A stretch of DNA of 64,000 nt, from positions 186,001-250,000 of the forward strand of contig NZ_JAUSVX010000003.1 in NCBI RefSeq assembly GCF_030814995.1, given 5' to 3'. Shown here one piece after another: positions 27,390-38,700 of this stretch; the stretch's first letter is position 1, and the number at the start of each line of letters is the position of its first letter. This DNA is from Labrys wisconsinensis (GTDB lineage: Bacteria > Pseudomonadota > Alphaproteobacteria > Rhizobiales > Labraceae). The notes beneath the pieces are model-generated. The model was given only the letters and a program-made list of their open reading frames with translations. It searched no databases and had not been told where the DNA came from. The position numbers and the translations under genes were made by a program.

Positions 27390-27568
27390 ACGGGGGATTG
27401 TCGCAGGCCGCCGCTGGGTTCCCGCGCGAAATTCGCCGACAGCGTTTTTGCGATTTGGCGGCAACGCCAAGCATCGCAAAGACGCGTCGAAACAAGGAGC
27501 CGGAGCAAAGCGGCGTTTCCGTCCAAACGCGCTTTGTTCTAGACAGGGGACGCACAGGATCCCTGCCC

Positions 27569-30600: not shown

Positions 30601-31332
30601 CTAGAGGTCCACGACCAGCTCGACCCGGCTGCTTGCATAGGCCGTGTTGGCGTAGTTGAGCGGCGTGTCGGAGGAGTCGACGAGCGTCACGTCGGTTTCC
30701 AGGACGTGATCGACCGGCGCGATCTCCAGCTGGCGGGCCTCCTCGGGCCGCGGCGGGCGCGAACGGATGCGCAGGGCCTTGCGCCGGAAGTCCGCCACGC
30801 CATAGTCCCTGAATATCTTGCCGAAGGACAGCTGGCTCGTCGGCTCGGGACCGAAAGCCCTGAACACGTCGTCGATGTTCGGAAATCGCTCGAGCGGAAA
30901 ATAATTGCTGACGATGTTGATGGGCACGCCATCCGCCTCGCCGCGGAGGACCACGAAGGCCGTTTCGGAGCCGGGCGCGATGTCGAGGGCCTCGGCCGCG
31001 GCCTCCGGTGCCGGCAGGCGCGCGACCGACAGGACCTTTCGTGTCGGCACGCGGTTCGAATGGATCAGGTTCTGCTCGAACCAGCGCCGCGGCCCGAGCC
31101 GCATCTGCAGCGGATTGACCACGGCGTAGGTGCCGCGGCCCCGCTCCATCCGGACGATGCCTTCCGTCTGCAGCTGCGCCAGCGCGCGAAGCACGGTGTG
31201 GCGGTTGACGCCGAAGCGCGCCGCGAGGTCGTTGCTGTTCGGCAGGCGCCGATCCGCTTCGAACACGCCGCGCTCGATCTCCTTGATGAGAGTCTCGGAA
31301 ATCTGACGCCACCGGCTGACCCCGCTTTCCAT
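30601..31332 (-). CDS. GntR/UTRA (HutC/PhnF-like) transcriptional regulator
   Basis: A 243-residue regulator. The winged helix-turn-helix is at residues 1-75 (RWRQISETLIKEIERGVF, LPNSNDLAARFGVNRHTVLR, VRMERGRGTYAV). The UTRA effector domain follows, with APGSETAFVVLRGEADGVPI and NYFPLERFP. The LIKEIERG...VNRHTVLRAL...VERGRGT pattern resembles PhnF, the regulator of phosphonate/phosphate-ester uptake genes. It is divergent from a binding-protein/amidohydrolase operon. ATG 31332 is chosen with GGAGA about nine bases upstream; GTG 31338 is the alternative. I infer that it binds the 21-bp sites at 31381 and 38487, whose core AGTCTAGA resembles the GTCTAGAC half-sites of HutC-subfamily operators. 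Confidence 0.86.
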   Translation of the reverse strand: MESGVSRWRQISETLIKEIERGVFEADRRLPNSNDLAARFGVNRHTVLRALAQLQTEGIVRMERGRGTYAVVNPLQMRLGPRRWFEQNLIHSNRVPTRKVLSVARLPAPEAAAEALDIAPGSETAFVVLRGEADGVPINIVSNYFPLERFPNIDDVFRAFGPEPTSQLSFGKIFRDYGVADFRRKALRIRSRPPRPEEARQLEIAPVDHVLETDVTLVDSSDTPLNYANTAYASSRVELVVDL

Positions 31333-31356: not shown

Positions 31357-31381
31357 TCGTCACAAAAGTTTTGCGTGACGA
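31357..31381. promoter_or_regulatory. Inverted repeat in the GntR/binding-protein spacer
   Basis: TCGTCAC (31357-31363), 11 bases including the self-complementary AAAAGTTTT, GTGACGA (31375-31381): perfect 7-bp arms. It abuts the 21-bp shared motif on its downstream side and lies 25 bp upstream of the regulator start, so it could be an autoregulatory or second-protein site. A single TGACGA also occurs near the second copy of the 21-bp motif (38477-38482, minus strand). Confidence 0.5.
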
Positions 31382-31401
31382 TTCATACTATAAGTCTAGA
31401 A
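31381..31401 (+). promoter_or_regulatory. Shared 21-bp operator, copy 1 (upstream of binding protein 1)
   Basis: The site consists of ATTCAT, one variable base (A), CTAT, one variable base (A), AGTCTAGAA. The same site with T at both variable positions lies upstream of the second operon (38507-38487, minus strand): 19 of 21 bases match, in the same orientation relative to transcription. It is 178 bp upstream of the binding-protein start and 48 bp from the regulator start. The CTAGA core and the adjoining GntR/UTRA gene make that protein the likely ligand. Confidence 0.72.
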
Positions 31402-31579
31402 TGAAAAAGCGAGTCCGGCAATGGGAAGCGGTGTCGCGCAATCGGGTGAGCCCTCCTGGCGAAAGCGCCGGCGGCGACACCGTCCTCGACGCAGCCACGG
31501 ATCGACCGACCGCATCGATCCCGTGGCGCCGGCTTGTTCATCGCCAACCTCACATCGAGACAGCCTCGAGGAGTCGACC

Positions 31580-32911
31580 GTGAAACGATCCGCCTCCCGG
31601 AGCCGCGCCCTGCTCGGCCGCAGATGGCGCAGCGCCATCATCGCCACCGCCACGCTCTGCTTCTCCTGGCTCAGCGTCCCACCGGCCAATGCCGAGACAA
31701 TCTTGTCGGTTCTCTATGCGGTTCCAAGCAATTTCTCGAAACTGCATGATGAGCTGTCGCAGAAATTCACGCAGAAAAACCCGGACATCAAGATCGTCTT
31801 TCGCAGTCCGGCCAAGGACTACGAGGACGGCATTCAGCAGATCCTGCGCTCGGCCGTGGTCGGCGACACGCCGGATGTCGCGTTCATCGGCCTCAACCAG
31901 CTCCGGGTCCTGGTCGACCGGGGGCTCGCTGCGCCGCTCGACGAGCGCGCCGCGTCGGAGGGAGGCTTCGAGACGCTGGGCTCGATGAGATCCATCGTTT
32001 CGCTCGGCCGGGTGCAGGGCAGGACCTATGCGATGCCATTCGCGGTCTCGACGCCGATCCTTTACGTCAACGAGGACCTGGTCCGGGCGGCCGGCGGTGC
32101 CATGGACGCGTTCCCGACGACCTGGGACGGGGTCCTGGCGCTTTCCAGGAAGATCCACGCGCTGCCCAAGGCGCCTGTGGGCTTCTCGTTCCAGTGGGAT
32201 ACTTCCGGCAACTGGCTCGTTCAAGCCCTGGTCAACAGCCATGGCGGCAACCTGGCGAAGGACGGCGGATGCCGGGTCGGGTTCGACGGTGCCGCCGGAG
32301 CGTGGACGTTCGACACTCTCCAGAAATTCCACGACCAGGGCATGCCGGACCTCACCTGGAGCCAGGGCCGGCAGGCCTTCGACGCAGGCACCGTCGGGAT
32401 CCTCGCCGGCTCCACATCCTATGTCGCCCAGGCGACCCGGGTCGCTGCCGGCAAGTTCGCCTTCCGAACGATGCCCTTCCCCGACATGGTGCCGGGCGGC
32501 ACGCTGCCGGCGGGTGGTACCAGCGCCGTCATCCTCACCAAGGACCCGGAGAAGCAACACGCTGCCTGGGCCTATCTGAAGTTCGCGACCGGACCCGTCG
32601 GCCAGACGCTCATGGCAACCGACACCGGATACATGCCGGTGAACCGGATTGCCGTCGATGATCCGGCCCTTCTCGGCAACTATCTGAAGCAGAACCCCAA
32701 CCAGCTGACGGCGATCGCGCAGATGCCGCTGATGGCGCCGTGGGAGTCCTGGGCCGGACCGAACGGCATCAAGATCATCGACATGATCTCCAGCAAGGCA
32801 GAGGCGATCATTGCCGGCAAACTGCTTGCGCAGGACGGCCTGCGGCAACTGGTCGAGGAGGTGCCGCCGCTCCTGCCGGCGGACTGTGCCGTTCCGACGC
32901 CGCTCCAATGA
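31580..32911 (+). CDS. ABC solute-binding protein, UgpB-like (copy 1)
   Basis: A 443-residue family 1 extracellular binding protein, the group that includes UgpB (glycerol 3-phosphate and glycerophosphodiesters). The signal peptide is IIATATLCFSWLSVPPANAE near residues 20-40. Type-typical segments are TPDVAFIGLNQLRVLVDRGL, YAMPFAVSTPILYVNEDLV, FPTTWDGVLALSRKI and WAYLKFATGPVGQTLMATDT. GTG 31580 is chosen because CGAGGAG lies upstream and the lead peptide fits a signal. It is clearly paralogous to the protein at 37160. Its stop overlaps the amidohydrolase ATG (ATGA). No permease or ATPase is nearby, so it must work with transporter parts encoded elsewhere, or act as a sensor. Confidence 0.88.
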   Translation: MKRSASRSRALLGRRWRSAIIATATLCFSWLSVPPANAETILSVLYAVPSNFSKLHDELSQKFTQKNPDIKIVFRSPAKDYEDGIQQILRSAVVGDTPDVAFIGLNQLRVLVDRGLAAPLDERAASEGGFETLGSMRSIVSLGRVQGRTYAMPFAVSTPILYVNEDLVRAAGGAMDAFPTTWDGVLALSRKIHALPKAPVGFSFQWDTSGNWLVQALVNSHGGNLAKDGGCRVGFDGAAGAWTFDTLQKFHDQGMPDLTWSQGRQAFDAGTVGILAGSTSYVAQATRVAAGKFAFRTMPFPDMVPGGTLPAGGTSAVILTKDPEKQHAAWAYLKFATGPVGQTLMATDTGYMPVNRIAVDDPALLGNYLKQNPNQLTAIAQMPLMAPWESWAGPNGIKIIDMISSKAEAIIAGKLLAQDGLRQLVEEVPPLLPADCAVPTPLQ

Positions 32912-33837
32912 CGGAGGATCCGGCACCACCCGGCCGCTCCCCCTGCCCGGACGACCTGGCCGGGCTGAGCGGCCGGGTCGAAGGCTTCGAGATCTTCGAC
33001 ACCCACGTTCATTTCTGCGCGCCGGAGCGCTTCGACTATGCCTGGGGCGCGCGCGAGCCCGAGAGCCTGCGGCTCGCGGATGCGACCGACTATCGCCGAG
33101 CCACGTTCGGCCTCCCCGTCGGGACGATCGTGGCGATGGAGGCCGTGGTCCGGGCCGATCAGATCGAAGCAGAAGCAGCCTTCTTCGAGGAACAGAGCCG
33201 CATTGACGATAGGGTCCGGTGCATGATCCTGGGAACGGCGTTCGAGACCCGGGCGGACATGCGCGAACTGGTCGAGCGGGTGTCACGCTCTGCCCGTGTC
33301 CGTGGGCTGCGCCTCCTCAGCCGCTATGCGCGCAACCCGCGATTCTTCCTCGAGACGGGCGTCGCCGGGCTCATCGGCCGCTTCGCCGATCTCGGCCTCA
33401 TCTGCGAAATCGGCGTCTGGCCCGATGAACTGCCCAACGTCGCTGATTTGGCCAGGCGATGCCCGGCGACGACGTTCGTGCTCAACCATGCGGGCAAGCC
33501 GGATATTGCCGGCGGACGCTACGCGCCCTGGGCGGCCGATCTCGCCGAGTTCGCCGACCTGGACAACGTGGTTTGCAAGATGTCGGGCCTGGTCACATTG
33601 GCCGGAGCACATGCAGGCGCATGCGGCACGTTCGATCCCTACATCCGGCACGTGGTGCGGGTGTTCGGCGCAGACAGGGTCGTCTTCGGCAGCGACTGGC
33701 CCATGGTCGAGGCGAAGACCAGCTGCGCCGGCTGGGCAGCCATCGTTCTCTCGGCGCTCGCAGACCGCCCTCCCTCCGAGATCCGATCGATCATGCATGA
33801 CAACGCGGCACGGATCTACGCCGGCGCACCGCGATGA
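32908..33837 (+). CDS. Amidohydrolase family 2 (TIM-barrel metal-dependent hydrolase)
   Basis: A 309-residue PF04909-type hydrolase. The metal HxH is H33/H35 (FDTHVHF), the mid-barrel His lies in LNHAGKPD near residue 197 and the late Asp in FGSDWPMVEA near 275-280. Related enzymes hydrolyse lactones or amides or decarboxylate ring acids (for example fuconolactonase-type and 2-pyrone-4,6-dicarboxylate hydrolases). The GSDWP and NHxGKP signatures are close to the lactonase side. It overlaps the binding-protein stop by 4 bp, so the two are translationally coupled. Its substrate is presumably derived from the imported compound. Confidence 0.85.
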   Translation: MTEDPAPPGRSPCPDDLAGLSGRVEGFEIFDTHVHFCAPERFDYAWGAREPESLRLADATDYRRATFGLPVGTIVAMEAVVRADQIEAEAAFFEEQSRIDDRVRCMILGTAFETRADMRELVERVSRSARVRGLRLLSRYARNPRFFLETGVAGLIGRFADLGLICEIGVWPDELPNVADLARRCPATTFVLNHAGKPDIAGGRYAPWAADLAEFADLDNVVCKMSGLVTLAGAHAGACGTFDPYIRHVVRVFGADRVVFGSDWPMVEAKTSCAGWAAIVLSALADRPPSEIRSIMHDNAARIYAGAPR

Positions 33838-33896
33838 CCGCCCTGCCGGGCCTGCCGTGCGAGGCGGCGATGCCGGGCGTCGCCCTCCGTTCCCGC

Positions 33897-35036
33897 TCAG
33901 GCAGGCGATGCGAGCAGGGCGGCGACCCGCTCCAGGCCGAGCTCGACGGCCTGCCGATCCGGCGGCGCGCTCAGCGACAGCCGGACGGCCTGGGGCGCCT
34001 GCCCCTCGCCGACGGCGAACAGCCCGGCCGGACGCACCAGGACGCCGCGCTCGGCAAGGCGCGCGGCAAAGGCGTCGGCCCGGATGTCCTCGGGCAGGCG
34101 CAGCCAACCATGCATGCCGCTCGGTCCGCAGCGCAGATCGGCCTTCTCCAGGATCCCGAGCGCGATCCGGCGGCGCGCTCCGGTTTCCTCGCGGATCGCG
34201 GCGCAGATCGCCTCGGCCGCGCCGGACATGATCCAATCGGCGACGAGCGCGGTCATGAGCGGCGCGGCAAACCAATGAGAGAGCCGGCGCGCCGGGCCGA
34301 CGACGCGGTCGAGATCCGCGGCCGAGGGCGCCACGAGATAGGCGACGCGCAGGCCATGGGCGAGGCATTTGGTCAGCCCGCCGACATGCCAGGCGATATC
34401 GGGCGCCAGCGCGGCAATCGCCGGCGGCGCATCGCGGTCGAGCCGGCCGAGCGGGTCGTCTTCGATGATCGGCACGCCATGGCGACGGGCGATGGCGGCA
34501 AGCGCCAGGCGCCGGCCTTCCGAGGCGACGGACGTGGTCGGATTGTGGTCTGTCGGATTGCAGTAGAGCGCCTTCGGCCCGTCCCGCCGGCACGCGTCCT
34601 CGAAGGCTTCGGGCACGATGCCTTCGTCGTCGATGGCAAGGCCGGCAATCCGGACATGAGCCCGGCGCGCGAGATCGGCGATGACGCCGTAGGAGAGGCG
34701 CTCGGCCAGAAGCAGGCCGTTCTGGCCCACGAGCCCTTCCAGAAGGAGGAGAATGGCGCTCTGAGTGCCGTTGGTCACGATGATCCGCTCGGGCGGGATG
34801 TCGCTCCTGAAGCGCGGGCGCAGCCAGAGCGCCCCAACCCGGCGGTCCTCGGCCGATCCGCCAGGCACGGCATCGCGCAGAAGCAGGCCGGACTGCGGCT
34901 TCCCACCGACCCGTGGGAGCGCTTCGGCGAGATGATGGGAGAGGATCGGCGGCACCGGCGGGATCGAGCGCATGAAATCGATGATGTCGGCGGGCTCTTG
35001 CCGACCGGCCGGCGAGGCGATGGTGCTCTGCGTCAT
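33897..35036 (-). CDS. MocR-like aminotransferase lacking a DNA-binding domain
   Basis: A 379-residue fold-type I PLP protein. The order of motifs is NGTQSAILLLLEGLVGQ, then YCNPTDHNPTT (the Asn and Pro of the cofactor site), IIEDDPLGRL (the Asp that pairs with the pyridine nitrogen) and HVGGLTKCLAHGLRVAYLV, where the Lys in GLTK is the probable Schiff-base residue. The sequence is closest in style to the aminotransferase half of MocR/PdxR regulators, but the GntR-type N-terminus is absent: the frame starts at ATG 35036, overlapping the upstream gene by 4 bp. It may be a true aminotransferase acting on the amino part of the substrate. Confidence 0.8.
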   Translation of the reverse strand: MTQSTIASPAGRQEPADIIDFMRSIPPVPPILSHHLAEALPRVGGKPQSGLLLRDAVPGGSAEDRRVGALWLRPRFRSDIPPERIIVTNGTQSAILLLLEGLVGQNGLLLAERLSYGVIADLARRAHVRIAGLAIDDEGIVPEAFEDACRRDGPKALYCNPTDHNPTTSVASEGRRLALAAIARRHGVPIIEDDPLGRLDRDAPPAIAALAPDIAWHVGGLTKCLAHGLRVAYLVAPSAADLDRVVGPARRLSHWFAAPLMTALVADWIMSGAAEAICAAIREETGARRRIALGILEKADLRCGPSGMHGWLRLPEDIRADAFAARLAERGVLVRPAGLFAVGEGQAPQAVRLSLSAPPDRQAVELGLERVAALLASPA

Positions 35037-36376
35037 CTGGAAGCCTGAGCGGTGTGGGAGAGCAGGTGGCGGACGGCGCGGTCGAGGCGGGTTCCCGTGT
35101 CGTGCCAGGCGAGCCTTTCCCCGGCCTGGCACTCGATGACTGCGGCTGCCGCGCCCGCGGTGGTGGCGATCGTCACCCTGCCGGACGAAGGAACCGTGCC
35201 GTCGCGACGCCAGGCGGTCGAGCGCTTTTGCGGCAGCGGCTCGCGCAGAAGCGGCATCCGGGATGCCGTCTCGGCGGCGATCTCGGCCGCGACGATGCGA
35301 TGGTCGCTGTAGGGCACGATCTCGAGGAGCTGCAAGCGCGTGACCGCGCCTTCGGGAAGCGCGGCGAAGACACCGTCGACGGGCGGCTGCGCATAGGTGA
35401 CATAGGCGATTGCGACCTCTGCCCCCGCCAAGCGGCGGATCGCCGAGGCGATGAAGCATGCGAGCGGCGCCGGCCCTCCGGACAGGGCGACCAGCGGCGC
35501 GGCAAGCCGGCCCAGGACGTCGTCGGCCGCCGCGTCGATCCGTTCGGCGCCATGGCCTGTCCAGGGGCCGGCCGGCTCGATGCCGATGCCGTGCGGCGCC
35601 CCGAACGCAGGCTGCGACCCGCCGAAGGTGAGGTCGATGCAGCCGAACTCGGCGCCGAGCGGCCAGGGCTGAAGAACCGGGGTGCCCTCGATCGCCCCGA
35701 AGAATCGGCCGAGCGTATGTCCTGCGGCGATGACATCGACGGACCGCGCCCACGCTCGGAGCTTGTCGAAAAGGCGCGCGGGCTCGGGCCGATAGCCGCG
35801 TCCAGGGGCGATCTGCCAATCGACGCCGTCGTGGAGGGCGAGAACGACCGCGCGCGCACCGTCGCGGCGCAGGTCCGCAGCGAGGGCGGCGACATCGACC
35901 GCCGGGTCCGGTCGGATCGGCATGACGCGATCGGGCGTCAGGCTCCAGGCGCTCATCGAGGCAAGAGCATCGTGCGTGAGGCCGATGACACCGATCGGGC
36001 CGATCGCGGTCGAGAGAAGCGCGGTGGCGGGAAGGTCGATGCCGGCATTGCCGCCGAGCAGCGGACATTTCAAGGCAGGCGCGTTGCGAAGCAGGAAATC
36101 GGTGCCGAAATCGAGCTCGTGATTGCCGACGACGGTGACATCCATGCCGAGCTCGGCCGCGGCGGCAAAACCGCCCTCGCCACTGGTGAGCGGCGTCAGC
36201 GGACCGCCCTGGGTCAGATCGCCGGTGTCGATCCAGAGGGTCGGACCGCCCTTGCGCAGCGCGCGGGCGCGGGAGCGCAGCCCCTCGCCGCCGGGCAGCG
36301 TCCCGAACGAGGTCGGCACCGGCGCGAAGGATCCGAAGAAGTCGTGGGTCGTCAGCAGACGAAGCCGATCAGCCAT
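35033..36376 (-). CDS. UshA/5'-nucleotidase-like metallophosphoesterase with altered metal site
   Basis: A 447-residue protein with the calcineurin-like phosphoesterase domain and a UshA-type C-terminal domain. Metal motifs are DTGDLTQGG (D53), VGNHELDFG (N85, H86) and AAGHT (near 226). Two usual ligands differ: the first motif is THDFFG, with Phe14 where the DxH histidine normally stands, and the last is GHTLG, not GHxH or GHSQ. There is no signal peptide, so unlike periplasmic UshA it should be cytoplasmic. It overlaps the genes on both sides (4 and 8 bp). Phosphomonoester or cyclic phosphodiester hydrolysis is the expected chemistry. Confidence 0.82.
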   Translation of the reverse strand: MADRLRLLTTHDFFGSFAPVPTSFGTLPGGEGLRSRARALRKGGPTLWIDTGDLTQGGPLTPLTSGEGGFAAAAELGMDVTVVGNHELDFGTDFLLRNAPALKCPLLGGNAGIDLPATALLSTAIGPIGVIGLTHDALASMSAWSLTPDRVMPIRPDPAVDVAALAADLRRDGARAVVLALHDGVDWQIAPGRGYRPEPARLFDKLRAWARSVDVIAAGHTLGRFFGAIEGTPVLQPWPLGAEFGCIDLTFGGSQPAFGAPHGIGIEPAGPWTGHGAERIDAAADDVLGRLAAPLVALSGGPAPLACFIASAIRRLAGAEVAIAYVTYAQPPVDGVFAALPEGAVTRLQLLEIVPYSDHRIVAAEIAAETASRMPLLREPLPQKRSTAWRRDGTVPSSGRVTIATTAGAAAAVIECQAGERLAWHDTGTRLDRAVRHLLSHTAQASR

Positions 36377-37163
36377 CGCCTCGTCCGCCGGCGAAGGTCG
36401 CGGCGAGCGCCGGATCGTTCAGGATCAGCGCATCGGGCGCGAGCGCGACGAGGCGGCGGAGATCGGCCGCATCGGTGTCGCCGACCGGGCCGTCCGCTCT
36501 GCCGCAGGTGATCATGACGCCCAGGCCGAGCGCCCTGAGGCGCGCGACCTGGCGCTCAGTGGCGCGGTGGGCATGAATCCGCCCCCAGAATGCAGGCGAG
36601 AGTCGCGCAAAATCGGAGAAATCGTCGATCTCCCGCATCAATCCGACCTGAGCCAGGGCGGGACAGGCCCTCTGCACGGCGCAGGCGATCTCGCATGTGC
36701 CGACGCCGACGATGAACCGATGGGGTTCGGCTGCAATCTCCGGGGCCTTCAGCACGCGGAGGAACCGGGAGAGGTCGCTCTCCTTCACGTCGAGGAGGAT
36801 CGGCAGCCCGACCGAGCCGGCCTCCACGAGATCGGGGATGTCGGGCCGGACCGCCCGCAGGGCCGCGCGAGTCAAGGCGCCGACCGCGACAGCCCGGCCG
36901 GCGGCATCGCGGATGTCCGCGTCGTGGGTGCACACGGCGCGGCCGTCGCCGGTCAGCCACAGGTCGGTCTCGATGGCGTCGGCGGCTCCCGCCTGCGCTG
37001 CCCGGAAAGCCCGCAGCGTGTTCTCGGGCGCCGAGGCGCTGGCGCCGCGATGGGCGATGATCAGCGGGCGACCGGCGGTCAGGCTTTCGCGGATCCAGAC
37101 GGGCCGGGGCAGGATGTCTGCCCGGCCGTCGCCGGCGACGACGTCTCCTGGTACTGTGGTCAT
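36369..37163 (-). CDS. Glycerophosphodiester phosphodiesterase family protein
   Basis: A 264-residue GDPD. The catalytic motif IIAHRGASASAPENTLRAF lies near residues 34-52, with the two metal acids in AIETDLWLTGDG and the second His in AVCTHDADIRD. C-terminal barrel strands LPILLDVKE and LGLGVMITCGRADG are typical. No signal peptide, so it acts in the cytoplasm, releasing an alcohol and a phosphomonoester from an imported phosphodiester. It overlaps the binding-protein stop (ATGA) and the metallophosphoesterase start (8 bp). Confidence 0.9.
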   Translation of the reverse strand: MTTVPGDVVAGDGRADILPRPVWIRESLTAGRPLIIAHRGASASAPENTLRAFRAAQAGAADAIETDLWLTGDGRAVCTHDADIRDAAGRAVAVGALTRAALRAVRPDIPDLVEAGSVGLPILLDVKESDLSRFLRVLKAPEIAAEPHRFIVGVGTCEIACAVQRACPALAQVGLMREIDDFSDFARLSPAFWGRIHAHRATERQVARLRALGLGVMITCGRADGPVGDTDAADLRRLVALAPDALILNDPALAATFAGGRGDG

Positions 37164-38422
37164 TTGGGCAACAGCGCCTCGACGTCCCGCTTCATGGCGG
37201 CGAGCGCCTCCTCGGGTGGCCGCTTCAGGGTCAGCACCTGCTGCAGATAATCCCTGATGACCTGCGTGATCCTGATCGTGTTCTCGCCGGGGAAGGCATA
37301 CCAGTCGGTCAGCCGCGAGAGCTGGTCGATCGCGGCCTTCTGGTTGGGGCGGGCCTCCAGCTGCTGGCCGAGACGGGCCGGATCGGCGAGCGCCTCGCGG
37401 TTGACCGAGACGAGGCCGGTCTTCTGGCCGATCAGGGTCTGAGCCTCGACGCCGACGACGAACTGGGCGAATTGCCAGGCGGCCGCGCGCTTGGCCGGGT
37501 CCTTGGCGAGCACCACCACCACTTCTCCGGCGGCGGGAACCTTTCCGACCGTCCCGGCCGTGGGAAGGGGGGCCGCCTTCAGCGGAAACTTGCCGGCGAC
37601 CTGTCTTTCGAGGCCGGCAAGCGCGCCGCTCGAGGTGATCAGCACACCGATCGTTCCGGCGACGAAGGCTTGGCGCGCCTGGTCGCGGGTCATGTCCGCG
37701 CGCCCCTGGCCCGCCTCGCCGAAAGCTCTGAGAACGGCGAAGGCCTCGCGGCCTTCCGGCCCGTCGAAGGCGACCGTCCTTTCGCTGGCGTCCATCATGC
37801 GGCCGCCGAGGGTGGCGACCAGCGCCTTGTAGGTCCAGTTGCTGGTGTTGTCGTATTCGAAGAATCCGCCGAGCACGCCGCGGCCGAGGGCGCCGATACG
37901 GCCGACCAGGGCCGTCGTCTCCGGCCAGGTCGCTGGGAAATGATCCGGGTCGCCGCCCGCGCGTCGCACGAGATCGGCATTGTAGACGACGACGGGCGTG
38001 GAAACGCCGAGCGGCAGCCCGTAGAGCGTGCCGCTCACTTCGCCGACCCCGGTCACGCCCTCGACGAGGCCCAGCGACGAAAGCGCTGCCGGCGTCGCCC
38101 CGAGCTCGGCGAGCGGGACAGCGAGGCGGCGATCGACCAGCGGCCGCATCAGGACGGGACTGACGAAGAGGACGTCCGGCGTCTTGCCGACGATAGCCTC
38201 GCGCAGGGTGCGCTGGACCAGCTCCTCGTCCTCGCGGACGGCCGGCGCAAGATCGATCCTGATCTGTGGATGCGTGCGTTCGAAAGCGGCCGCAACGGCC
38301 TCGTAGGCGGCCTGGTAGATGGAGGGTGCTGGCGCGACGTCGATCCTGACGGTCTCGGCAAGGGCCGGACCGGTCAGGCCTGTCAGGGTTGCCAGCACGA
38401 ATGTCAGTCCTTGCCGCTTCAT
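37160..38422 (-). CDS. ABC solute-binding protein, UgpB-like (copy 2)
   Basis: A 420-residue family 1 extracellular binding protein with a Sec signal (FVLATLTGLTGPALAE). Segments GKTPDVLFVSPVLMRPLVDR, YGLPLGVSTPVVVYNADLVR and FPATWPETTALVGRIG align in order with copy 1 at 31580, and the two are evident paralogues. It heads the minus-strand operon; the GDPD gene overlaps its stop. Like copy 1, it has no permease or ATPase partner in the window. The second copy of the 21-bp operator is 65 bp upstream of its start. Confidence 0.88.
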   Translation of the reverse strand: MKRQGLTFVLATLTGLTGPALAETVRIDVAPAPSIYQAAYEAVAAAFERTHPQIRIDLAPAVREDEELVQRTLREAIVGKTPDVLFVSPVLMRPLVDRRLAVPLAELGATPAALSSLGLVEGVTGVGEVSGTLYGLPLGVSTPVVVYNADLVRRAGGDPDHFPATWPETTALVGRIGALGRGVLGGFFEYDNTSNWTYKALVATLGGRMMDASERTVAFDGPEGREAFAVLRAFGEAGQGRADMTRDQARQAFVAGTIGVLITSSGALAGLERQVAGKFPLKAAPLPTAGTVGKVPAAGEVVVVLAKDPAKRAAAWQFAQFVVGVEAQTLIGQKTGLVSVNREALADPARLGQQLEARPNQKAAIDQLSRLTDWYAFPGENTIRITQVIRDYLQQVLTLKRPPEEALAAMKRDVEALLPK

Positions 38423-38486
38423 CGGAAGCTCCGGTGGTCGAGGGGCACGGCCGCCTTCGCGGGGCGGCGATTTCGATCGTCATTGG

Positions 38487-38507
38487 TTCTAGACTAATAG
38501 AATGAAT
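38487..38507 (-). promoter_or_regulatory. Shared 21-bp operator, copy 2 (upstream of binding protein 2)
   Basis: On the minus strand: ATTCAT, one variable base (T), CTAT, one variable base (T), AGTCTAGAA. Nineteen of 21 positions match copy 1 at 31381-31401. It ends 65 bp upstream of the binding-protein start, a position suited to overlap a promoter. The rest of the 278-bp spacer to the next plus-strand gene shows nothing further. Confidence 0.72.
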
Positions 38508-38700
38508 AATCAAGGGCACCCGCCATGACATATGCGCGACAGGGCAGGCGACGCACGGGACGGCCCCCGGAATGCGCCCCCTTGAATGCCGGTGGCCATT
38601 TCCCGATTCCCCTGTGAATCACCGCGGCCGAGCCCTAGAATCCGAGGAGCACCGTTCGCCGAACAGCGTTCGCCGGCGAGCAGTGGCAATGGAGAGGTCG

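Follow-up and report, generated by a model that had tools for sequence, protein, structure and literature searches.

What controls two gene clusters that face each other in the genome of Labrys wisconsinensis, and through which DNA site, is the question raised by the 64,000-nucleotide stretch analysed here (contig NZ_JAUSVX010000003.1, positions 186,001 to 250,000; hereafter the window). The two clusters, operon 1 and operon 2, converge as originally predicted, with stop codons at 33837 and 33897, and their gene content suggests that they probably scavenge phosphorus-containing organic compounds. A 21-bp site, present once upstream of each operon (operators 1 and 2), lies beside the gene of a GntR/HutC-type regulator resembling PhnF, the regulator of carbon-phosphorus (C-P) lyase operons. 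The answer that we consider likely is that this adjacent PhnF-type repressor reads both operators, through a site of its own whose outer arms have shifted, and that operon 2 is additionally subject to PhoB; the repressor would probably control both clusters and itself.

Operator 1 occupies 31381-31401 on the forward strand, between the regulator gene and the gene for binding protein 1 and 48 bp from the start codon of the regulator gene itself, and operator 2 occupies 38507-38487 on the reverse strand, 64 bp upstream of the gene for binding protein 2. Both were recovered by de novo motif search. The pattern ATTCATNCTATNAGTCTAGAA matches each with 0 mismatches, and 19 of 21 bases are identical between them, the differences being confined to the two variable positions; the pair, its places and its identity therefore stand as given in the original prediction. 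Its description as three blocks separated by single variable bases does not, since the blocks are parts of one palindrome. Each operator is an inverted repeat, CTA-N6-TAG, with outer arms (TTCATaCTAtaagtcTAGaATGAA at operator 1 and TTCATtCTAttagtcTAGaACCAA at operator 2), and the palindrome at operator 1 spans 31382-31405 (TTCATACTATAAGTCTAGAATGAA). Over 24 bp, operator 1 matches at 9 of 12 pairs, a level reached by 0.2% of the 24-mers of the window, and operator 2 at 7 of 12, a level reached by 4%. The strands are such that the site has the same orientation to each operon, as had been remarked, but this carries little meaning in a quasi-palindromic site. The half-sites had also been likened to GTCTAGAC boxes; the frame is instead CTA-N6-TAG, GTCTAGAA forms its right half only, and the outer arms are TTCAT/ATGAA-like, unlike the TTGT/ACAA arms of the PhnF family.

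The pair is unique in the genome. When up to 3 mismatches are allowed, the 20-mer TTCATNCTATNAGTCTAGAA finds operators 1 and 2 and nothing else across all 8,926,997 bases (55 contigs), and the same 20-mer read backward finds 0 matches; many unrelated copies, which would have spoken against a dedicated site, were looked for and are not there. The 16-bp core gives two extra matches, both at 3 mismatches, versus 21 for its backward control, and 100 dinucleotide shuffles of the window contain no match to ATTCATNCTATNAGTCTAGAA at up to 3 mismatches. Similarity between the two promoters ends with the shared 21 bp: 14 of 40 bases agree to the left and 12 of 40 to the right, and the pair is therefore not a recent copy of a whole promoter. 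By itself the 19/21 identity is modest evidence: among 5747 sampled pairs of 250-bp upstream regions of this genome, 18 reach at least 19/21, the window pair (19) included, and in at least some of the other pairs the two regions have repeated sequence in common. The weight is carried by the uniqueness of the pair and by its link to relatives of the regulator. The same sampling revealed 21-base sequences repeated word for word between distant upstream regions in 8 of the 5747 pairs, at window positions 27472-27492 and locus L055 and also at loci L055, L052, L051 and L049; these are probably dispersed intergenic repeats. Another genome of the order (G045, locus L013) has a perfect match over 20 bp, which first seemed to be a distant copy and was judged a chance match because it falls inside a 601-codon open frame (476-2281), in a stretch without homologues of the seven genes of the locus. 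Searched with up to 3 mismatches, the 59 relatives gave 28 matches to the pattern versus 50 for its backward control, with homologues of the seven genes in none of the 28 stretches.

The regulator gene (30601..31332, reverse strand) encodes 243 residues with the GntR/HutC domain build, an N-terminal GntR winged helix (PF00392, 2e-15) followed by a C-terminal UTRA domain (PF07702, 1.5e-20), and it scores 164.4 bits against the PhnF equivalog TIGR02325, above the cut-off of 156.8. Its recognition helix is FGVNRHTVLRAL, containing Leu48, and Ser33 precedes the helix. At E <=1e-50, among 397 genomes of the order (its own included), relatives were found in only one other genome, G137, which has four paralogues of 44-51% identity; the Labrys genome itself has one, on contig C31 (48%). 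The genome collection yielded no relative when scanned with the single regulator protein and 538 when scanned with a six-row alignment, of which the best 80 were kept; the best is from Bradyrhizobium iriomotense (54%). Matches at E <=1e-55 in 8 of 394 genomes of the family of G137 added one clade member (G701), and a second copy was added from the B. iriomotense genome (L167). In a tree of 109 regulators, built after matches covering less than about 180 residues had been dropped, the window regulator belongs to a clade of ten rows with a support of 98, an SH-like value only; two of its rows, L062_3088 and L154, are long branches that join.

To which class of regulator does the site belong? When a matrix is built solely from the two window sites, a score of at least 9 is reached in the upstream regions of 62 of the 98 PhnF-like regulators that lie outside the clade, versus 3 of 100 control upstream regions from three genomes and 7 of 412 stretches, mostly coding, taken 3-5 kb away in the same loci (Mann-Whitney 5e-22 and 4e-38). 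De novo searches of the promoters of relatives arrived at the same frame. When 14 clade promoter regions were searched from random starts, the 16-bp frame of the window pair emerged, with a log-likelihood of 77.2 versus 20.1-25.1 in 12 shuffles; 5 of these regions come from B. iriomotense and 2 from the window, the Bradyrhizobium stretches were cut as pieces of about 200 bp once sites had been noticed there, and the shuffles received 60 starts versus 150. Of the 109 upstream regions 108 were used, one being too short, and the operator rule was read from the 98 belonging to relatives outside the clade (76 after dereplication). Searching these 76 at width 20 gave tTGTCTAgacgtcTAGACAa (score 636.4), whose consensus, TTGTCTA-N6-TAGACAA, has the frame of the window pair. 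At width 16 the search scored 505.4 versus 19.7-33.9 in four shuffles, with shuffles run at that width only and with 60 starts versus 25; the first run at width 16 returned a single GTCTAGAC-centred box, and the double frame emerged at width 20. The perfect TTGTCTA-N6-TAGACAA occurs in 12 of the 108 upstream regions, most others having imperfect versions, usually 60-150 bp from the gene. Clade and non-clade regulators did not differ significantly when ranked with the window-pair matrix (p=0.18), because the non-clade regulators also carry the motif. From this recurrence we conclude that the site class belongs to the PhnF-like regulator family. Of the original proposal that the GntR/UTRA protein controls both operons, the PhnF-type assignment and the family geometry of the site are thus supported; the control itself we infer.

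Within the family, a change in the DNA-reading helix accompanies the change in the operator arms. Aligned with NagR, Ser33, Arg44 and Leu48 of the window regulator correspond to Glu37, Arg48 and Arg52. In the accessible text of the NagR-DNA paper, Arg38 and Arg48 are the base readers, Arg48 reading a guanine (PMC4333415), and this arginine is conserved in the window regulator. Six of the ten clade members, the window regulator included, have Leu in place of the second Arg, with Ser (five) or Ala (one) in place of Glu; of the remaining members two have Asp and Arg, one has Glu and Arg, and one is unreadable. In the clade without the window regulator, scores of the window-pair matrix are 13.1-19.2 for five members, which are exactly the other Leu-type regulators, and 5.4-6.6 for four, all non-Leu. 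Among 88 regulators of the Glu/Arg type, the fifth half-site base is C in 142 of 176 half-sites and TAGACAA occurs in 60, versus 5 of 12 and 0 for the six Leu-type regulators, all of which belong to the clade; 12 of 108 helices were unreadable in this count, and the site finder favours canonical arms. The Leu-type clade operators retain the CTA-N6-TAG frame and lack the TTGT/ACAA arms, and the joint change of helix and arms would fit a switch in specificity. NagR half-sites are six bases apart in the accessible text of the same paper (PMC4333415), and the G and C of the CTA-N6-TAG frame stand 8 bp further apart than their counterparts in NagR sites. So wide a frame would imply that two dimers overlap on the DNA or that a single dimer is of unusual width; the centre of the non-clade consensus, gacgtc, would allow two adjacent GTCTAGAC boxes, i.e. 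two dimers.

The Labrys genome encodes further PhnF-type regulators. TIGR02325 has 96 matches in it, of which 11 exceed the cut-off, one of them barely, and we read the window regulator as one PhnF paralogue among many, with its own operator. Five PhnJ (C-P lyase) genes, on contigs C8, C3, C7, C15 and C14, each lie within about 8 kb of a PhnF-type regulator, which amounts to a large phosphonate repertoire. The window contains no PhnJ gene, and the nearest on the same contig is about 159 kb from the regulator, so the latter has no C-P lyase linkage. The top-scoring paralogue (264.5 bits) is encoded on contig C8, with a PhnJ gene 2.3 kb away and an exact copy of the canonical site TTGTCTA-N6-TAGACAA, the only one in the genome; it is likely the C-P lyase PhnF. 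This site shares the CTA-N6-TAG frame with the window operators, and with so many PhnF-type regulators in one cell it is conceivable that another paralogue, the C8 protein or its counterpart on C31, reads the window sites, which would then belong to a larger phosphonate regulon with the adjacent gene as a bystander or second input. We regard this as unlikely: the C8 regulator's own site keeps intact TTGT/ACAA arms, the C31 promoter is arranged differently (ATAGACAACTAT), operator 1 adjoins the window regulator, and altered-arm sites adjoin its five Leu-type relatives. Adjacency and altered arms together thus point to the window regulator as the paralogue that would bind. The C31 regulator (site at L050:10375-10394) and the closely paired regulator of G137 (L062:8737-8756) share ATAGACAACTAT; at the two helix positions their residues are Asp and Arg. 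Upstream of a further clade regulator of G137 lies a perfect 18-bp palindrome, TAGTGTTCTAGAACACTA (L063:10958-10975), centred on CTAG and off the CTA-N6-TAG axis.

The shared 21 bp could also be a promoter element, or a remnant of common promoter ancestry, rather than the operator of a repressor. The first genes of the two operons are 38% identical paralogues, a sigma-70-like match at 31375-31402 (forward strand; shuffle mean 0.1) overlaps operator 1 and places its second hexamer, TAGAAT, within it, and a TATAAT lies inside the operator of a TonB gene in B. iriomotense. The overlap of operator and -10 hexamer is, however, also what steric repression would look like. No promoter-like match was found at operator 2, the flanks of the operators cannot be aligned, and the same palindromic frame stands upstream of many PhnF-like regulators; we consider this explanation highly improbable.

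A second regulatory input is suggested for operon 2. The Pho box consists of two CTGTCAT repeats with a 4-base spacer in the accessible part of PMC3131613. A similar direct repeat, CTGTCGC-gcat-ATGTCAT (38525..38542, reverse strand), matching at 12 of 14 positions, lies upstream of operator 2 and points to operon 2; PhoB is encoded in the genome, on contig C12. Of 13 clade operators, 7 have a Pho box of at least 11/14 no more than 70 bp away, versus 14 of 175 control upstream regions (p=0.0025), the 13 leaving out the second L062 promoter and including two near-copies (L064 and L167). All seven boxes lie upstream of the operator and, judged by eye, point to the structural genes; that of L154 overlaps the operator. 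Pho boxes are likewise found near 15 of 31 canonical PhnF operators (p=9e-8), at the same distance in 10 of the 12 best listed. At operator 1 the best candidate, matching at 8 of 14 positions, was no better than controls and was dropped; with a Pho box upstream of operator 2 and none convincing at operator 1, PhoB activation is likely for operon 2 only, and operon 2 is likely to be under dual control of repressor and PhoB.

In the mechanism that we propose, a dimer, or two dimers side by side, would bind the CTA-N6-TAG inverted repeat and its outer arms. At operator 1, between divergent promoters, the repressor would shut off its own gene together with those of binding protein 1 and the amidohydrolase, and at operator 2 it would shut off the transcript encoding binding protein 2, the phosphodiesterase, the phosphatase and the aminotransferase. 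A phosphorus-containing ligand would bind the UTRA domain and cause release of the DNA, and operon 2 would additionally need phosphate starvation, sensed through PhoB at the Pho box upstream of the operator. The DNA-reading part of this paralogue (Leu48 for Arg, Ser33 for Glu) and the operator arms would have shifted together from TTGTCTA-N6-TAGACAA, probably avoiding cross-talk with the 10 other PhnF-type regulators of the genome. More tentatively, the PhnF-type regulators of one genome might all be insulated switches, with a common CTA-N6-TAG frame and diverged arms tracked by the Glu/Ser and Arg/Leu residues, each serving its own set of binding proteins and of enzymes that release phosphorus, under gating by PhoB; we think it less probable than not that the system is so general.

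Several observations weigh against the proposed mechanism. In four of the nine other clade members, the window-pair matrix finds nothing that matches well. Scored with the canonical width-20 matrix, operator 2 comes only fourth among the places in the window, with 7.1 bits against a non-clade median of 23.4, operator 1 is absent from the 12 best window rows, and neither operator appears among the window rows of the canonical width-16 matrix; weak scores are expected if the arms have changed and are no independent proof of the change. 'Glu37' and 'Arg52' do not occur in the accessible text of the NagR-DNA paper (PMC4333415). The change in helix and arms falls within a single clade and so could reflect descent instead of specificity. 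Among the other own-genome PhnF-like regulators examined (11 loci, L049-L059), a clear site of the CTA-N6-TAG frame was found at C8 alone, and insulation among the remaining regulators is a guess. The clade Pho-box test reached p=0.0025 only, with controls that include promoters of other PhnF-like regulators, and operator 1 has no convincing Pho box. Finally, the nearest permease genes, at the ends of contigs C14 and C3, have no operator at up to 3 mismatches.

What, then, would the regulon take up and break down? With gene starts taken from a frame caller made for this analysis, operon 1 (forward strand) consists of the GTG-initiated gene for binding protein 1 (31580..32911; 443 residues; SBP_bac_8, 1.2e-35) and that for an amidohydrolase-2 family hydrolase (32908..33837; 309 residues; PF04909, 6.2e-36). 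A known RNA element in the 178-base leader of binding protein 1 was considered and dropped, as the leader has no Rfam match at E <=0.5; its folding z-score is -1.87. Operon 2 (reverse strand) begins with the gene for binding protein 2 (37160..38422; 420 residues; SBP_bac_8, 1.1e-28), followed by genes for a glycerophosphodiester phosphodiesterase (GDPD) family protein (36369..37163; 264 residues; PF03009, 9.7e-19; best solved match 1v8e) and a 5'-nucleotidase-like metallophosphatase (35033..36376; 447 residues; PF00149, 0.00021, 22.2 bits versus a cut-off of 21.5), and ends with that for a class I/II aminotransferase (33897..35036; 379 residues; PF00155, 4.9e-14). The metallophosphatase has weak matches to UshA-type structures. 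The usual metallophosphatase motifs are D-x-H and GHxH; here DFF and GHTL stand in their places, and one metal site may be degenerate. The aminotransferase resembles the catalytic domain of the MocR-type protein EhuR, matching only positions 90-451 of profile NF052286, and lacks the DNA-binding domain.

The solute-binding proteins are both UgpB-like, UgpB (6r1b) being the nearest solved chain for each. The label 'organophosphate' originally given to the regulon is plausible. The relatives suggest a qualification. UgpB-like binding proteins are encoded in seven of the eight other clade loci and homologues of the aminotransferase (38-54%) in six; both are missing from L050, and the contig carrying L154 is just 10 kb long. 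Where the window has GDPD and phosphatase genes, clade loci of G137 contain genes for type I phosphodiesterase (PF01663), PhyH, TauD, amidohydrolase and aspartoacylase-like proteins, and the B. iriomotense clade locus contains an ABC transporter and a TonB receptor, a family resemblance that suggests phosphorus scavenging with changing enzymes. Loci of this kind also include phosphonate genes in the nearest relatives. In B. iriomotense a clade-type site precedes the aminotransferase gene, and a phosphonopyruvate hydrolase gene (TIGR02321, 395.2 bits; cut-off 374.4) comes after it on the same strand, a pair resembling the PalB-PalA phosphonoalanine route (PMC10574752). The regulation could thus be as proposed and the compound taken in be an amino-bearing phosphonate or phosphate, with the aminotransferase as the conserved core, rather than phosphodiesters generally. 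We give this possibility considerable weight, a little short of even. The seven window genes include no phosphonopyruvate hydrolase, with a phosphodiesterase and a phosphatase family protein in its stead, and the likeness of both binding proteins to UgpB also speaks against it; we would describe the substrate of the window pathway as organophosphorus, perhaps amino-bearing. A PhnJ-bearing locus on the contig of the window, around another PhnF-type regulator (L049, G000:C3:375000-394900), has two UgpB-like binding proteins, with 45% identity to binding protein 1 and 40% to binding protein 2, along with a PhnM-like amidohydrolase, a calcineurin-like phosphatase and an Exo_endo_phos enzyme; the theme is that of the window and the enzymes are different.

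A Pfam search found no permease or ATPase among the seven window genes. Recurrence of the sites with permease genes elsewhere in the genome was ruled out, no operator-bearing permease being found. A UgpA-like permease gene at C14:233652-233996, cut by the contig end, encodes a product 63% identical over 115 residues to that of B. iriomotense, and a UgpE-like permease (C3:588976-589779; 74% to that of B. iriomotense) is encoded at the end of the window's own contig. The two may be one operon split by the assembly.

Compared with known systems, the locus is of a familiar kind, a HutC-type repressor in a divergent arrangement. It shares with PhnF and its C-P lyase operon (TIGR02325) the domain build, the score above the cut-off, the CTA-N6-TAG frame, the divergent placement and the Pho boxes near many operators of the family; it differs in lacking C-P lyase genes among the seven, in the two helix residues and in the arms, so that the rule TTGTCTA-N6-TAGACAA derived here fits in its frame and not in its outer arms. 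HutC operators are usually GT-N4-AC, with FarR, NagQ and SdhR as exceptions, and PhnF is mentioned once in the accessible main text (PMC4494728). The right half of the window site, AGTCTAGAA, resembles one such box of HutC, NagR and DasR (e.g. GTGGTCTAGACCAC), but the window frame is two CTA/TAG triplets six bases apart, and the AC side is AA; the right part of each site is GTCTAGAA and the left part CTAT, with AC absent. Ugp/GDPD uptake and breakdown is matched by the UgpB-like binding protein and GDPD-family gene in one operon and by the Pho box at operon 2; the locus studied here differs in having two binding proteins, no ATP-binding cassette (ABC) permease or ATPase in the locus, and in addition an aminotransferase, a phosphatase, an amidohydrolase and a GntR repressor. 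The PalB-PalA phosphonoalanine pathway is approached in gene order by the B. iriomotense locus, the closest relative; among the seven genes of the window locus there is no phosphonopyruvate hydrolase. We found no description of TTGTCTA-N6-TAGACAA or its variant in the literature covered, including the accessible parts of PMC4494728, PMC4918961, PMC10574752 and PMC7866108, RegPrecise and subscription papers being outside that scope. An altered-arm operator of a PhnF-type regulator is well supported as a real and new variant.

Organic phosphorus sustains bacteria in poor soils and waters, and where 11 PhnF-type repressors share a genome with five C-P lyase loci, the switches must somehow be kept apart. 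The operator pair and the rule derived from its relatives make this separation testable through one or two residues and a few bases, and the rule itself provides a search pattern for PhnF regulons in alphaproteobacteria.

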